DNA from: Corallococcus coralloides DSM 2259
GTDB taxonomy: Bacteria > Myxococcota > Myxococcia > Myxococcales > Myxococcaceae
Direction of reading: 5' to 3'
DNA length: 64,000 nt
NCBI RefSeq assembly: GCF_000255295.1
Contig: NC_017030.1
Span: 6,794,328-6,858,327 of the forward strand
Within the stretch, counting starts at the first letter, position 1; each line of letters opens with the position of its first letter. The position numbers and the translations under genes are program-made. This document shows positions 6,416 to 45,300 of this stretch, piece by piece. Below the pieces are notes generated by a model. That model had not been told where the DNA came from. It worked only from the letters and a program-made list of their open reading frames with translations, and did no database searches.

Positions 6416-6440
6416 AACCTGTCCGACTGTCGGACAGGTT
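6416..6440. repeat. Single copy of the 25-base nested palindrome
   Basis: This is a perfect copy: 12-base arms AACCTGTCCGAC and GTCGGACAGGTT around a central T. It lies alone in the 214-base gap between two minus-strand genes. The rest of that gap (6323-6536) shows no other feature. Confidence 0.9.
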
Positions 6441-17774: not shown

Positions 17775-18066
17775 AACCTGTCGGACAGTCGGACAGGTTT
17801 CCACCGCTCGGCTGGGGTGGAGGCCCCGGCCTCGGGGCTCCAAAACGTGTCCGACTGTCGGACAGGTTTCCGCGGCTCGGCTGGGGTGGAGGCCCCGGCC
17901 TCGGAGCACCAAAACGTGTCCGACTGTCGGACAGGTTTCTTGGCCCGGCTGGGGCGGAGGCCCTCCGGCCTCGGGGGTTCAAAGTTGCCCGACAGTCGGA
18001 CGGGTTCCCGCTGCTCGGGCGGCGAGGGCGCCCTCGGCCATGGCCCCCTGAACCTGTCCGACAGGC
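17775..18066. repeat. Tandem array 1: nested palindrome on an exact 69-base period
   Basis: Five units start at 17775, 17844, 17913, 17982 and 18051, each exactly 69 bases apart. Each has a copy of the 25-base palindrome (arms like AACCTGTCCGAC and GTCGGACAGGTT with 1-3 changes) followed by a related 44-base GC-rich spacer containing GGCTGGGGTGGAGGCC or a variant. The fifth palindrome is a shortened form (CCTGTCCGACAGG) from which eight central bases are missing. The array fills most of the 532-base gap 17680-18211 between the FHA gene and cdnL. No convincing gene lies here. Because 69 is a multiple of three, several frames stay open through it, but their products are only repeat translations. 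Confidence 0.9.
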
Positions 18067-34511: not shown

Positions 34512-35287
34512 AACCTGTCCGACAGTCGGACAGGTTCTGAATCGCCGCGGTTGGCGCCGCCCCGCTGCGGAAACCCGTCGGACAGTCGCAGCCGGGCTCG
34601 GCACGACCCTGGCTGGCGTCATGGCGCCGCGAAAACCGGTCCGACAGTTGGAGTCGGGCTGGGCACGACCGTGGCTGGCGTCATGGCGCCGCGAAAACCG
34701 GTCCGACAGTCGGAAAGGTTCTGGAACGCCATCGCGGGCACCCCGGCACCGCGAAAACCTGTTGGACAGTCGGACAAGTTCTGGAGCCCCATGGCCGCAA
34801 CCACGGCGCCGCGAAACAGGTCCGACAGTCCGACAGGTTCTGGAGCCCCATGGCCGGAACCACGGCGCCGCGCCAACCTGTCGGACAGGTTTTGGAACAT
34901 AGCAACCGGCACCACGCCGTGAAGACCTGCCGGCCGGGTTTGGGACACTCGGCTGGCGCCACGCCGCTACGAGAGCCTGTCGGGCAGTCGGACAGGTACT
35001 GGAGCGCCATAGCTGGCACCACGACGCTGCGAGATCGCGTCAGACGGTCGGACAGGTGCTGGAGCTCCACGGCTGGCACGATGACGCTGCGAAACCGGTC
35101 GGACAGCCAACAGGTTCCGGGACACCGCCGCCGGTACCACGGCGCTGCGAAACCGGTCGGACAGCCGGACAGGTTCGGGAACGCCACCGCTGGGACCAGG
35201 CCGCAGCGAGAACCTGTCGGACAGTCGGGCAGCTTCTTCAGCGATGCGGTTGGCGCCGCGCCGATGCGGCAACCTGCCCGACAAGCC
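34512..35287. repeat. Tandem array 2: nested palindrome on a period of about 60 bases
   Basis: About 13 diverged units have palindromes starting at 34512, 34572, 34634, 34696, 34756, 34815, 34875, 34924, 34974, 35034, 35093, 35151, 35211 and a truncated one at 35271. Spacing is mostly 59-62 bases. The first copy is perfect; others differ at several positions. The copy at 34875 is a perfect 17-base palindrome (AACCTGTC-G-GACAGGTT) lacking eight central bases. Spacers are related to one another (for example CTGGAGCCCCATGGCCG and GGCACCACG.CGC.GCGA). The array fills the 951-base gap 34374-35324 between the AddB-like and hydrolase genes. The frames open through it read only as repeat translation (NLSDSRTG, PVGQSD), so I call no gene. 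Confidence 0.9.
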
Positions 35288-37547: not shown

Positions 37548-38456
37548 ATGCTCCGCCGCCCCATGCCTGCTTCCTACCGGACCCTCGCCACCTTCTGCCT
37601 GCTCCTGCTGGCGCCGCTGTCCCCCGCCGCCGCGCAGGACACCTCCGACGCTCCGCGCGCGCTGCGCTTCAACTGGACTCGCGACGGCATCATCACCGGC
37701 ACCGCGGGAGTGCTGTGGCTCTCCAGCGAGTCGGTGTTCAAGGACAACCTGGCCCCGGCGCAGTGCCGCTGGTGCGACCGTGCTCCGGACGGCACCGACC
37801 GGCTCAACCGCCTGGACCGCTGGGGCCGCGGCATCGCGGGGAGCACGGAAGCGTCCCGCAAGCGCGCGGACACCTGGAGCAACATCATCGGGTTCGCGGG
37901 CCTGCCGCTGGGACTCCTGGGCACCCAGTACGCGGTGGGGCGCAGCAGTGGCGCCTCCACGGAGTTCTTCGCCCAGGACGCCACCATCATGGTGCAGAGC
38001 GCCGTCCTCGCTTCCGTCGCCAACCAGGCGGTGAAGTTCGCTGTGGGCCGTGAGCGTCCCTTCGTCCACGTCCTCCCGGAGGCGGAAAAGGGCCTCACCG
38101 AGCACCCCACCGACAACAACCTGTCCTTCTACAGTGGCCACACCAACCTGGCCTTCTCCCTGGCCGTGTCGGCCGGCACCGTCGCCGCGATGCGTGGCTA
38201 CAAGCACCAGGCCGTCATCTGGGGCGTGGGCCTGCCGCTCGCCGCCTCCGTGGGGCTTTTGCGCATGGGCGCGGACAAGCACTACCTCTCCGACGTGCTC
38301 ACCGGCGCCGTGCTGGGCACCGCGTTCGGCGTCGCCGTGCCCCTGCTCCTGCACAGCCGCGTGGACGACACCTCGCCCGCCACCACGCGGGCGTCGTCGG
38401 TGTCACTCAACCCGATGGTCGGGACCCAGATGGTGGGCCTGTCCGGCGCCTTCTAG
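37548..38456 (+). CDS. Exported PAP2-family phosphatase
   Basis: This is a 302-residue protein with a signal peptide (TLATFCLLLLAPLSPAAAQ). The PAP2 signature comes in order: KFAVGRERP (motif 1), SFYSGHTNLAFSLA (motif 2, catalytic His), and RMGADKHYLSDVLTGAVLG (motif 3, nucleophile His and Asp). Several hydrophobic helices surround these. The family dephosphorylates phosphatidic acid, undecaprenyl-PP, sugar phosphates or other phosphomonoesters. The substrate here is unknown, and the exported, envelope-facing position favours a lipid phosphate. The start at 37548 has GGAG 7 bases upstream; 37563 is the alternative. Confidence 0.85.
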   Translation: MLRRPMPASYRTLATFCLLLLAPLSPAAAQDTSDAPRALRFNWTRDGIITGTAGVLWLSSESVFKDNLAPAQCRWCDRAPDGTDRLNRLDRWGRGIAGSTEASRKRADTWSNIIGFAGLPLGLLGTQYAVGRSSGASTEFFAQDATIMVQSAVLASVANQAVKFAVGRERPFVHVLPEAEKGLTEHPTDNNLSFYSGHTNLAFSLAVSAGTVAAMRGYKHQAVIWGVGLPLAASVGLLRMGADKHYLSDVLTGAVLGTAFGVAVPLLLHSRVDDTSPATTRASSVSLNPMVGTQMVGLSGAF

Positions 38457-38536
38457 CCCCCCCACCAGAAGTTCGCGACCCCATCCTGCGCGGCAGCAGG
38501 GCGCGCACGGAGGCGCCCGCGGTCCATCAGGGCAGG

Positions 38537-38556
38537 CGCCCCTCTTCAGGGGGGCG
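38537..38556 (+). terminator. Hairpin downstream of the PAP2 gene
   Basis: GCGCCCC and GGGG(G)GCG pair around TCTTCA about 80 bases after the PAP2 stop. There is no clear T run, so it is a possible terminator only. Confidence 0.35.
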
Positions 38557-38565
38557 TGTAGGGCC

Positions 38566-38607
38566 TCATGAACGACAGCGGACATGAAGGGCTGTTGTCG
38601 TTCATGA
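38566..38607. repeat. Perfect 12-base inverted repeat at the end of the regulator gene
   Basis: Arms TCATGAACGACA (38566-38577) and TGTCGTTCATGA (38596-38607) are separated by 18 bases. The right arm covers the stop codon of the GntR-type regulator at 38602-38604. The repeat sits between two convergent genes, so it could act as a bidirectional terminator structure or a protein-binding site. Confidence 0.7.
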
Positions 38608-40098
38608 AATAGGGGAGCCTGGGGAATGGGCAATGGAACGCCAGAAGCGCACGGTCCAGTGGCCCAGGGAAGCCCAGAGGTCCATGCAGCGCCTCACCCA
38701 CGTTGCGAAACGCCCCGAGGAGGTTTCAGCGGGAGCCACAGCGTGAAGCCTCGGGCTGCTGGAGGCCCCTTCCTGAGGCGAAGCACCAACACCTGTCTGA
38801 CTGTCGGACAAGTTTCCCCAAGCAGCGCCCATCACGTCCCGCCCTACGCACGCCCCGCCGACTCCGCAGGGGGCAACCCCCGGGGCAGCCGAAGACAGCA
38901 ACTGCCCGCGGTCCAGCTCCACACGGAGGGCCTGTGCACCGAGGCAAGGCGCAATCCCAAGCGGCTCGGTCGCCTCAGCGATGGGCTCAAGGGAGCAGAG
39001 GCCATGCGAATCAACGTTTCGGCATAGCTCCAGCATCCCGTCCGGTTCGTTGGTGGGCGAGGAGGCACCGAGGCCATGACGCTCCCCTCGGTGGAGGGCC
39101 TCCGGCGAATCATCCTGCGCGGTAGCTGACGCGAAGCTGTCGGCACTATGTGCTTCGATGCACGGGCGTGCCTCCAGCGCTTCGACTTGCGCGGTGGTGT
39201 CGGCTGCACGCTCCTCAACGCAAGGACAAGCCTCCAGCGCAACAGCCTGCGTGGTGGCTGACGCGGGGGCGCTTGCGCCACGCTCCTCAACACAGGGACG
39301 TGTCAGCGGCGCATCCTCCAGCCCGGAGACGGATGAGGATGCACCGAGGAGGTCCTCTTGGTTGAGATGGGCCTCGGGGGACGCAGGAACACGGGGAGCA
39401 GGGGCGAATGCGTTCAGCACTCGCTCGTCACACGCCTTCAGCATCGCAGGTAGCTCGTGCTGCAGTGCCTGCACGTCACGCTCGTGCAGGATCTCCATCA
39501 CGCGGAAAGCCCACTCGCGCAGCGCCTCTCCGCCCAGGAGCGGCAACAGTTGGGCGGCTCCTCCCAGGAATGCCCGCTGCAGTGACTGAACGAGGAGCAC
39601 ATGCCCGGGACGCGCCGCCACCCGCGCTGCCTGCCGCAGCAACTCGAATTCCACCTGCGCGCAGGTTGCACCCGACTCCCAGCGCGCCGCGTCCTGGAGC
39701 TGGAAGCACATACTCCCCAGCCGGTCCAGGTCGAGGTCCGAGGCCCTCTCGCAGCAGTCCGCCAGCAGTTCCACCAGCACCTGCCGCTTGAGGCTGAAGC
39801 AGCCCTCCAGAAGCCACCGGGCCTTCGGGGAGCGCTCGTCATGCAACGCCAGTCCCAGGTTCTCCAGCGTCAGCGACTCATCCAGCGCCACCGCGCGAGT
39901 CCTGCGCCCGGGGTGTTGCACCACCAGGCCCCGTGCCGCCAGCCGACGCAGTGCCTCGCGGATGGTGCCCCGGCTCGACCCATAGCGCTGCGCCAGCTTC
40001 GCTTCGGGACCGAATTGCCCGCTCGGGTGCAGCCGCCCCAGCGCGATGTCGCGCTCGATTTGCGCCTCCACATAGGCCACGAGTCCTCCCCGTTCCAT
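38602..40098 (-). CDS. GntR/FadR-type regulator with long low-complexity tail
   Basis: This is a 498-residue protein. The N-terminal winged helix is typical GntR (AQIERDIALGRLHPSGQFG, then KLAQRYGSSRGTIREALRRLAARGLV, residues about 9-60). A helical FCD/FadR-like domain follows to about residue 225. The last about 270 residues are unusual: imperfect repeats around a CVEER/ALEA pattern, then GNLSDSQTG, which is a copy of the genome's 25-base palindrome read as protein. The end is aromatic and amphipathic (WVRRCMDLWASLGHWTVRFW). Normal family members stop near 230 residues. The start at 40098 is chosen because AGGGG lies 6 bases before it. The frame upstream is palindrome translation. It lies next to array 3. 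Confidence 0.7.
   Translation of the reverse strand: MERGGLVAYVEAQIERDIALGRLHPSGQFGPEAKLAQRYGSSRGTIREALRRLAARGLVVQHPGRRTRAVALDESLTLENLGLALHDERSPKARWLLEGCFSLKRQVLVELLADCCERASDLDLDRLGSMCFQLQDAARWESGATCAQVEFELLRQAARVAARPGHVLLVQSLQRAFLGGAAQLLPLLGGEALREWAFRVMEILHERDVQALQHELPAMLKACDERVLNAFAPAPRVPASPEAHLNQEDLLGASSSVSGLEDAPLTRPCVEERGASAPASATTQAVALEACPCVEERAADTTAQVEALEARPCIEAHSADSFASATAQDDSPEALHRGERHGLGASSPTNEPDGMLELCRNVDSHGLCSLEPIAEATEPLGIAPCLGAQALRVELDRGQLLSSAAPGVAPCGVGGACVGRDVMGAAWGNLSDSQTGVGASPQEGASSSPRLHAVAPAETSSGRFATWVRRCMDLWASLGHWTVRFWRSIAHSPGSPIS
38790..38814. repeat. Nested palindrome copy inside the GntR-type gene
   Basis: The 25-base element has three changes in the arms (CACCTGTCTGAC, central T, GTCGGACAAGTT). 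It lies within the open reading frame of the minus-strand regulator, where it encodes about nine residues (NLSDSQTG core). It is the only copy in the window inside a recognised gene. Confidence 0.8.
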
Positions 40099-40218
40099 CC
40101 CCATTCCCCTTCCTCGTCCTAGCATCGCCATCCAACCACAGGGGTCTGACATGGACGCGCGGGCCGCCCCTCCGCGTCGCTTGCCAGGCGAGCGCGCCCC
40201 CGGGCCGCATGGGGCGAA

Positions 40219-41533
40219 AACCTGTCCGACGGTCGGACAGGTTTTGAGGCAACCGGGCCCAGGCGGGCGCCCCAACCTGGTATCCGCGCACGTATGCCGT
40301 TGTTCCTCTGTCGGTTTGGCGCGGTCTCGGGCCCAATGCAGAGGAGAGCCTGTCCGACTGTCGGACAGGTTTGAGGTAACCGGACCCAGGCGGGCGCCTC
40401 AGCCCGTGGCTCCACCTTGGTATCCGCGCACGTATGCCCTTGTTCCCCTATCGGTCCGGCGCGGCCTCAGGCCCAATGCAGAGGAAAGCCTGTCCGACTC
40501 TGTCGGACAGGTTTTGAGGCAAGCGGCCCAGGCGAGCGCCTCAGCCCGCGGCGCCACCTTGGTATCCGCACACGCATGACGTTGCAGTTCGCCACTCCGT
40601 TCCGAGAAGCGCGCGTCCTCGGCTGCATGCGATGCGAACCGGTCCGACTGTCCGACAGGTTTTAAGGCGACCGGCCTGGGGCGGGCGCATCTGCTCGTAG
40701 TCCTACCTTGGTGTCCGCGCACTCGCGACGTTGCGGCTCGCCGCTGCGCTCCGCGAGGCGCGCGCCCTTGGATTCATGTGGTGCGAACCGGTCCAACAGT
40801 CGGACAGGTTTTGAGGCGAATGGCCCCAGGCAGGCGCTTCTGCTTTGCTCCACCTTGGTGGCCGCGACCTCACGACGTTGCGGCTGGCCGCTGGGCTGAG
40901 TGAGGCGCGTCCTCGGATGCATGCGGTGCGAACCTGTCCGACTGTCGGACAGGTTTTGAGGCGACCGGCCCCGGGCGGGCGCCCCTGCTTTTGAACCTGA
41001 TTGCGTGTTCGCGCGCACGACGTCGCTCACGTGCCATGCCAGCGCAGCCCTGGACTGCGGGCATGGGAAACCTGTCCGACTGTCGGACAGGTTTTGAGGC
41101 AACCGAGCCCGGGGGCGCAGCTACCCGTGGGCATGTCCTGGCGTCCGTATATGCAACTCGTTGCAGTCCACCACTGTGGAGCGCGTGGCTTCGGGTTTCG
41201 TTCAGCACGAACCGGTCCAACTGTCGGACAGGTTTGCGGAAACCGGGCCCGGGCGGACGTATCTGCTCGTGATCCGGCCCTGGTACCCGTGCATGCGCAC
41301 CGGTTGCCGCCCATCGATGTACTTTGCGACGTACGCGTCCTCGAGCTTCGTGCGGCATGAACCGGCTGGACTGTCGGACAGGTTCGGGGTCCATTCACCC
41401 GGCTGGCGCCCATGCTTGTGAGCCGGCCGTGGCATCCGCGCATGCGCAGCGGTTGCCGTTCACCGTTGCGCTCCTTGATGGGCGCGGCCCCGGATTTCGT
41501 TCGGCTCGAACCGGTCCAACTGTCGGACAGGTT
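40219..41533. repeat. Tandem array 3: nested palindrome on a period of 128-150 bases
   Basis: Ten palindromes start at 40219, 40347, 40487, 40637, 40786, 40931, 41069, 41210, 41360 and 41509. Those at 40931 and 41069 are perfect; 40219 has only a central-base change; 40487 has a two-base insertion. The 100-125-base spacers are related: TGAGGCAACCGG, GGCGGGCGC, TTGGTATCCGCGCACG and similar blocks recur with drift. The array fills most of the 1755-base gap 40099-41853 between the GntR-type gene and the hybrid kinase. Open frames in this gap are repeat translations (NLSDSRTG, PVRQSDRF), so no gene is called. The last 320 bases (41534-41853) hold the presumed kinase promoter, which I cannot define. 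Confidence 0.9.
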
Positions 41534-41853
41534 TTGCGGAAGCCGCGCCCGGGCGGGTGCATCCGTCCTTGCCGTGACTTGGGCTTCGCGCCTGCGCGAC
41601 GTCGCGGTCCACGGTCGCTCCGTGAGGCGCGTATCCAATTGGGAGCTTCGGGTCGCGGCCTGGGTTGACGAACTGCTGGCGCCCTCTCTGGTCACGCCCC
41701 TTCGCCGGGCGCGCACAAGGCGACACTTCGACCCCTCGGGTCCCGGGCGTACCCTCCCAACATGGTAGTCAATCCGTCCACCTTCGTCGGACGGGTTCCT
41801 TCCGTGCGCTTCATCCTGTGTGTTTGCCTTCCGTGCGCCCCGGGACGGTGTCC

Positions 41854-45300
<3,447 letters not shown>

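Follow-up and report, generated by a model that had tools for sequence, protein, structure and literature searches.

A multicopy FadR-like GntR regulator of Corallococcus and a dispersed palindromic repeat that is probably its operator

REP and REPIN elements are short extragenic palindromes that occur in hundreds of copies, form clusters, lie preferentially downstream of genes and are associated with one gene family. Among myxobacteria, the RMX repeat of Myxococcus xanthus (1991) is also a repetitive element. We analyzed a stretch of 64,000 nucleotides (the window), positions 6,794,328–6,858,327 of the 10,080,619-bp chromosome of Corallococcus coralloides DSM 2259 (genome G000 below), in which a 25-base palindrome (25-mer) is repeated beside a GntR regulator gene. 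Like REP/REPIN elements, the 25-mer is short, extragenic (3 of 181 copies in called genes, a lower bound as described below), clustered and biased to the downstream side of genes, and has 285 copies. Unlike them, its associated gene encodes a FadR-like regulator and not a Y1 transposase, which was found in 0 of 16 Corallococcus genomes. A second system for comparison is the FadR subfamily. E. coli FadR likewise combines a GntR winged helix with an all-helical C-terminal domain and has operator cores of the form GT-N3-AC, but 9 of the 16 Corallococcus genomes have 8–15 GntR gene matches each, the putative operators are doubled, amplified into arrays and, where dispersed, mostly located downstream of genes, and the long variable tail of the protein carries an operator-like copy in its gene. 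A third is NanR, of which three dimers occupy one (GGTATA)3 operator (PMC8012715). In NanR several dimers thus share repeated sites; here, arrays contain up to 14 candidate double operators and are mostly away from promoters. As parts, a FadR-type regulator, an operator and an extragenic palindromic repeat are all of known kinds. Their combination was not found in print, namely a family of regulators that has multiplied along with hundreds of its putative operators, away from promoters and in co-varying specificity classes. Published descriptions of this repeat or of multicopy GntR genes in myxobacteria were not found either; the subscription literature was mostly outside the search and an earlier description is possible.

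The gap between the GntR start codon (40104, minus strand) and the start of a sensor kinase gene (41854, plus strand) is 1.75 kb long. A first-pass annotation of the window had reported that ten copies of the 25-mer, one every 128–150 bp, fill this gap, and reading the sequence confirmed it: start-to-start spacings from palindrome 1 to 10 are 128, 140, 150, 149, 145, 138, 141, 150 and 149 bp. The copies at 40931 and 41069 are perfect, as had been stated, and so is the one at 40219. Nor is the array a product of chance, with 19 matches in the window (≤3 mismatches) versus 0 in 100 shuffles. The features are as follows (window coordinates; strand given where assigned).

38602..40104, minus strand: GntR/FadR-type regulator gene, 500 codons; the first 233 residues are conserved and a low-complexity tail follows
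38790..38814, plus strand: palindrome copy with 3 mismatches, within the GntR reading frame towards its 3' end
40124..40154, minus strand: conserved promoter-proximal motif of the GntR gene, reading CCATGTCAGACCCCTGTGGTTGGATGGCGAT towards the gene
40219..40243: palindrome 1, perfect; proposed upstream operator of GntR
40347..40371: palindrome 2
40487..40513: palindrome 3, a variant 27 nt long, with two extra bases at its centre
40637..40661: palindrome 4
40786..40810: palindrome 5
40931..40955: palindrome 6, perfect
41069..41093: palindrome 7, perfect
41210..41234: palindrome 8
41360..41384: palindrome 9, 4 mismatches
41509..41533: palindrome 10
41854..45300, plus strand: sensor kinase gene on the right flank, named by eye
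6416..6440: perfect copy standing alone between co-directional neighbor genes
17775..18006: second array of the window, with four copies and a period of 69, no adjoining GntR gene of this family
34512..35235: third array in the window, 8 copies at ≤6 mismatches with a period of ~60

Palindrome 1 lies upstream of the GntR gene, at 115 bp (near edge) to 139 bp (far edge) from the start codon. The 12-mers ATCGCCATCCAA and GGTCTGACATGG of the promoter-proximal motif each occurred in 10 of the 104 array flanks (both sides of 52 clusters), and variants of this motif occur in other genera. The window had no Rfam match at gathering thresholds, viral contigs contained no exact copy of the 25-mer, and helical phasing of the array spacing, judged by eye, was unsupported.

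The N-terminus of the GntR protein matches the GntR winged helix-turn-helix domain (PF00392, E 2e-13, 50.2 bits against a cut-off of 27). Its AlphaFold model (pLDDT 84.9) has 7 helices from residue 80 on, forming an all-helical C-terminal domain, and the best structural match is E. coli FadR (1e2x; Z 19.6, rmsd 3.8, 218 residues aligned). As modeled, the protein is a full-length FadR fold. The protein scored below the NCBIfam cut-offs for FadR proper, the fatty-acid regulator equivalog (TIGR02812, 20.9 bits versus 249.2; NF003444, 20 versus 189), and below that of each of the 14 NCBIfam families compared. In PHROGs, three families of unannotated function match residues 12–70 at the N-terminus only. 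Residues 45, 47 and 49 were invariant R, T and R in all 33 aligned sequences; they share their numbers with FadR DNA contacts, a correspondence by numbering. The C. coralloides genome has 12 copies of the GntR gene (mean dN 0.076 and dS 0.317, from 11 of the 12 paralogs).

We examined 132 GntR loci, 105 from 15 Corallococcus genomes and 27 from other genera. By strict criteria, an upstream palindrome was present at 95 of the 105 Corallococcus loci; among the remaining 10, two (L304 and L305) had a looser match and eight were cut by contig ends. Over all genera, 98 of 132 loci had a strict upstream palindrome, whose far edge was 107–233 bp (median 139) away from the start codon and, in 89 of the 98, 105–145 bp away. 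A second palindrome was often found in or close to the 3' portion of the GntR gene, in other species and genera too. For example, G005, G007 and G010, low-copy genomes with a single GntR gene, each have one palindrome at about −140 and one in the reading frame; in G008, only the upstream palindrome was seen on the stretch examined. Outside the genus, the in-gene palindrome was found at 24 of 27 loci and the upstream one, in the strict range, at 3 of 27; one of the others has it at −279. Two gene copies of G083 read the in-gene palindrome in another frame (judged by eye), which points to a constraint on DNA rather than on the peptide.

The form of the upstream palindrome was found to follow residue 35 of the GntR protein. 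Among loci with a detected upstream palindrome, all 22 with Arg35 (20 from Corallococcus and 2 from genus g3) had AACTGGT...ACCAGTT there, versus 0 of 76 loci with other residues, whose arms were CT, TT, GT and similar, although the loci are related by descent and these counts are not independent events. In G006, 8 Arg35 and 7 Glu35 genes coexist, every one with the matching upstream palindrome. The same switch was seen in Corallococcus, in the genus of G080 and G082 and in g3, and it occurs within single genomes, upstream in G000 and G006 and in the gene in G080. Outside Corallococcus, the in-gene palindrome had the AACTGGT form at 8 of 8 Arg35 loci and 0 of 16 others; within the genus it does not track residue 35, six Arg35 loci having CT in five cases and GT in one. 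Site and protein appear to change together. R35 is among the DNA contacts of E. coli FadR (PMC4259882); we equate it with GntR residue 35 by equal numbering and fold alignment, and a sequence search for this correspondence gave no PDB match. The position aligned with residue 35 is occupied by Arg in PdhR and NanR. NanR sites read TGGTATAW, and Arg at one recognition position, which may differ from residue 35, strongly prefers G/C (both from PMC4494728).

If dispersed copies belonged to the same specificity classes, genomes with Arg35 genes would be predicted to have an excess of AACTGGT palindromes. Counted at ≤2 mismatches, a threshold that admits hybrids of two classes, these numbered 98 in G006, 94 in G001, 45 in G003, 40 in G002, 36 in G011 and 3 in G000; the corresponding numbers of Arg35 genes were 8, 6, 4, 5, at least 1, and 1. 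The predicted excess was thus found in five of six genomes (36–98), the sixth having 3. The ten Corallococcus genomes in which no Arg35 gene was found had 0–12 such palindromes (rho 0.85 over 16 genomes; 3 of 6 GntR matches were read in G011, 10 of 13 in G003, 10 of 11 in G004 and 9 of 11 in G014, some of them fragments, and all elsewhere). The same pattern would result if the gene and the dispersed copies shared a common descent; the count thus supports the pairing without proving that dispersed sites are bound. Numbers of GntR genes and palindromes correlated over all 16 genomes (rho 0.74) and were uncorrelated among the 10 high-copy genomes (rho 0.06). Besides, G002 contains symmetric AACGGGT...ACCCGTT palindromes, possibly a third specificity class.

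The palindrome is not confined to the window, as a scan of the genome and its relatives revealed: 285 copies were found in the 10.08-Mb genome at ≤3 mismatches (reversed-pattern control, 0), and all 16 Corallococcus genomes carry it, with 6–285 copies each. We read 855 kb of the C. coralloides genome in 41 stretches, namely the window and 40 more that were picked for perfect copies; the sample is therefore not random. At ≤6 mismatches the 41 stretches contained 181 copies in 52 clusters, versus 1 copy of the reversed consensus, and 139 of the 181 were outside clusters adjoining a GntR gene. The codon-usage script that called genes missed the GntR gene itself, so counts of copies inside genes are lower bounds.

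The 25-mer holds two overlapping cores, GTCCGAC and GTCGGAC, in the arrangement GTCNGAC-N-GTCNGAC, with centres 8 bp apart. In most operators of the FadR subfamily, 3 nt separate GT from AC (PMC4494728), and the probe used for FadR at E. coli fadL contains CTGGTCCGACC (PMC4259882, primer table). Both cores of the 25-mer have this GT and AC spacing and are conserved over the 181 copies. Core letters carried 0–8 changes each, and the core centres, which would be partners of each other in a hairpin, carried 34 (position 9, counted from 1) and 21 (position 17). Outer positions 4, 5, 21 and 22 vary too (14–31 changes), so that this freedom is not restricted to the core centres.

Because of its position, its co-variation with the protein, the fold of the protein and this mutational footprint, we read the 25-mer as a doublet of overlapping GntR/FadR-type operators bound by the adjoining GntR protein and its paralogs, and we put the probability of this reading as a whole at roughly 0.85. 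Binding of the 25-mer by GntR is very probable. Autoregulation through the −140 site is likely, and so, with some reserve, is occupancy of the dispersed arrays in the cell. That these arrays are chiefly a sink or scaffold rather than regulators of their neighbors is close to an even bet, and that many are remnants of former GntR units is plausible but tentative. Under this model, the protein encoded at 38602–40104 and its paralogs would bind GTCNGAC-N-GTCNGAC, and the copy ~140 bp upstream of each GntR gene would most likely serve autoregulation. The unit of regulator and proposed operator has multiplied in 9 of 16 genomes, where dispersed copies and tandem arrays of this operator are also found. 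Dispersed arrays, mostly just downstream of genes, could act as a protein sink or scaffold; they may in part have been left behind when GntR genes were lost, and may be homogenized by recombination between copies. The first-pass annotation had offered three roles. A platform for a dimeric protein is well supported by the sequence, and the likely protein is the GntR at the left edge of the gap, which that annotation had treated as a neighbor only; a mobile repeat holds in part, and chromosome organization was weakly addressed. If true, the operator reading would provide a natural experiment in co-evolution of a DNA-binding protein and its operator (105 gene copies in one genus, 95 with a visible operator), with at least two specificity classes tied to one residue and both found within one chromosome. 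A regulator, not a transposase, would then be tied to a genome-wide palindromic repeat family, which is unusual and would bear on the old question of the purpose and maintenance of REP-like repeats.

Comparison with relatives suggested how the ten-copy array arose. The additional features are as follows.

37548..38456, plus strand: PAP2-like gene on the left flank, named by eye
38470..41705: putative inserted unit of GntR gene and array, ~3.2 kb; ends placed by eye from empty sites, with an accuracy of ~20 bp

In all nine relatives that have both flanking genes on the stretch examined (G002, G003, G004, G005, G006, G008, G010, G011 and G015), these genes are 157–184 bp apart with neither GntR nor palindrome between them. 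GntR adjoins the PAP2-like gene in G012 and G014 as well; in G001, G007, G009 and G013, neither kinase nor GntR was found on the stretch examined. The empty sites, together with GntR in G012 and G014, are most simply explained by insertion of the unit in an ancestor of G000, G012 and G014. A target-site duplication was not established at the junctions of the window or of the other cluster loci; a candidate at cluster c10 was diverged and was dropped.

Dispersed arrays turn over by loss and gain, and a given site may be occupied by a gene unit or by an array alone, or be empty. Of 22 G000 clusters, 13 could be mapped in G012 on both flanks, where 5 were absent and 8 present; reciprocally, 8 of 12 G012 clusters were mapped in G000 and 1 was absent. 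Common arrays differed in copy number between the two genomes, e.g., 13 versus 4. Cluster c27 is an array in G000, G014 and G013, and a GntR unit occupies the site in G001, G002, G003 and G006; G012 and G009 have nothing there, and G004, G005 and G008 lack a palindrome. This locus suggests that arrays may persist after loss of a GntR gene. Cluster c2 is common to G014, G003, G013 and, slightly displaced, G006, and is missing in G012 and G001. The idea that all arrays absent from G012 are insertions in C. coralloides was rejected, as the c27 and c2 arrays are common to other species; judged by this distribution, G012 most likely lost them. Cluster c8 was found in G000 only, with no palindrome in G012, G014, G004, G003, G013 or G006 (0 of 6), and by this distribution it is a clear gain, the only clear one among the three loci compared in further species. 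In addition, three GntR paralogs of G012 were 95–98% identical to one another and grouped in the tree; two of them, at sites common with G000, matched their counterparts in G000 at only 84% and 90% identity, whereas the flanks of these sites were 93–95% identical. Gene conversion between GntR copies would be the simplest explanation for paralogs closer to each other than to their counterparts. At the c27 locus of G013 (L338), 19 palindromes form two blocks ~1.3 kb apart without GntR. In the C. coralloides genome, another locus (L009) has two perfect single palindromes 3.5 kb apart, at 2,032,987 and 2,036,518; G012 has a GntR unit and palindromes there instead.

This coming and going of copies between species agrees with the earlier suggestion of a mobile palindromic repeat without its own transposase, as do the lack of Y1/RAYT proteins in 16 of 16 genomes and the fact that the GntR gene itself travels with palindromes. 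A different and rather unlikely explanation is a REP/MITE-like selfish repeat, in which a unit of ~80 bp is copied by a trans-acting transposase, the palindrome being its substrate and GntR a passenger or neighbor. It would fit the gain of c8, the weak similarity that dispersed copies share with c8 beyond the palindrome over ~70–90 bp, and their REP-like placement downstream of genes. It would also fit AAGGTGAGAA, which occurs six times in 855 kb, each time within 42–60 bp of a palindrome cluster, and which may mark the outer end of a repeat unit. However, Y1_Tnp proteins (PF01797) were found in 0 of 16 genomes at E 0.001 (controls matched in 5 of 14), no target-site duplication was identified at the loci inspected, and the match between residue 35 and the palindrome and the free core centres are left unexplained. 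REP/REPIN elements with RAYT carry a conserved tag, GTAG or CGTC, on one side (PMC3733652); neither was present beside the 25-mer. Across 181 oriented copies, flanking positions held ≤1.11 bits, and the majority letters there spelled no such tag.

Other genera were compared as well. Scoring the best 29 candidates per genome, the GntR protein was found in 27 of 96 genomes of the family; among the 80 outside Corallococcus, 9 had both protein and palindrome, 1 the palindrome only, 3 GntR only and 67 neither. Palindromes without GntR at the cut-off were seen in G009 and G062, and GntR without a palindrome at 3 mismatches in G058, G063 and G092. Across the order, 26 of 145 genomes had any copy, and the 25-mer (≤3 mismatches) was absent in 26 of 27 genomes of genus g19 (inferred to be Myxococcus). 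G078 has at least 29 GntR matches. Of 10 copies examined there, 6 had a repeat at the 5' end, 6 at the 3' end and 5 (L241, L245, L246, L247 and L248) at both, with matching 16-bp terminal inverted repeats CTAAGCGCTCGGACAT / ATGTCCGGGAGCTTAG that differ at 2 of 16 positions and contain the half-site CGGACA. These sharp-ended copies are transposon-like in sequence and would fit the REP/MITE explanation as well; beside the five complete ones no target-site duplication was evident by eye, and in Corallococcus no terminal inverted repeats were established. A speculative extension of the operator reading, which we consider doubtful, is that the GntR gene and its flanking operators form a self-propagating unit that multiplies, sheds arrays at gene ends, converts sister copies, splits into orthogonal Arg35/TGGT and non-Arg35/CTGT classes that share a chromosome and each have dispersed operators of their own, and perhaps promotes its own spread. 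GntR might then gather arrays for recombination or direct insertion sites, filling the role that RAYT transposases have for REP elements without possessing a nuclease fold.

We also examined the placement of dispersed clusters. After excluding clusters that adjoin GntR, overlap a called gene or have no neighbor gene, 34 of 52 were counted: 1 was in a divergent gap, 13 in convergent gaps and 20 in co-directional gaps, compared with 100 divergent and 19 convergent among 291 control gaps. In 17 of the 20 co-directional gaps the array was closer to the stop of the upstream gene. Dispersed clusters thus shun divergent gaps (1/34 vs 100/291), which argues against classic promoter operators. Relative to co-directional genes, the repeat unit showed no bias in orientation (8 same, 12 opposite). 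The position mostly downstream of genes and the convergent excess would suit a role at gene ends as RNA hairpins or intrinsic transcription terminators, and in 3 of 3 perfect copies tested a predicted hairpin of −18.8 to −19.9 kcal/mol is followed by T's. We nevertheless regard this explanation as improbable. Selection for a hairpin was rejected on the changes themselves: among the 181 copies, 243 were one-sided, 2 were two-sided and unpaired, and 1 was two-sided and paired, i.e., compensated, with 7.0 expected if the sides changed independently. Moreover, arrays of up to 14 copies would be needless for termination, GntR-linked copies lie upstream of the GntR gene, and terminators do not predict residue 35.

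A further possibility considered was that a nucleoid protein, perhaps this GntR, binds the palindromes as chromosome-organizing or macrodomain sites. The 285 sites are spread chromosome-wide, and loci with perfect copies were modestly denser in the origin-proximal half (37 versus 17 of 54, p 0.009; dnaA is at base 144). In contrast, copy number differs from 6 to 285 within the genus, 5 of the 13 mapped C. coralloides clusters are absent in the close relative G012, and the spacing within arrays ranges between 36 and about 150 bp, so that such a role is very unlikely. Spacings fall mainly at 36–53, 59–81 and 128–153 bp. In 22 arrays of at least three copies (66 adjacent pairs), neighboring palindromes were 89% identical and spacers 72% (shuffled-spacer control, 47%), and palindrome identity exceeded spacer identity in 57 pairs. 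Palindromes resembled one another more than either flank did in all 16 dispersed arrays and in 5 of 6 GntR-linked ones, including the ten-copy array. The earlier statement that the palindrome is better conserved than its spacers therefore extends to these arrays, and the two do not evolve alike. Each array looks like a tandem duplication of the palindrome with its local spacer, in which the palindrome has remained conserved. A CRISPR-like or other spacer-acquiring array, for which palindromic repeats at regular spacing might speak, is refuted by this relatedness of spacers within an array, which indicates tandem duplication instead of acquisition. Finally, an inverted repeat, TCATGAACGACA...TGTCGTTCATGA, is present at 38566–38607 near the left end of the inserted unit, where it overlaps the GntR stop codon and is a possible terminator.
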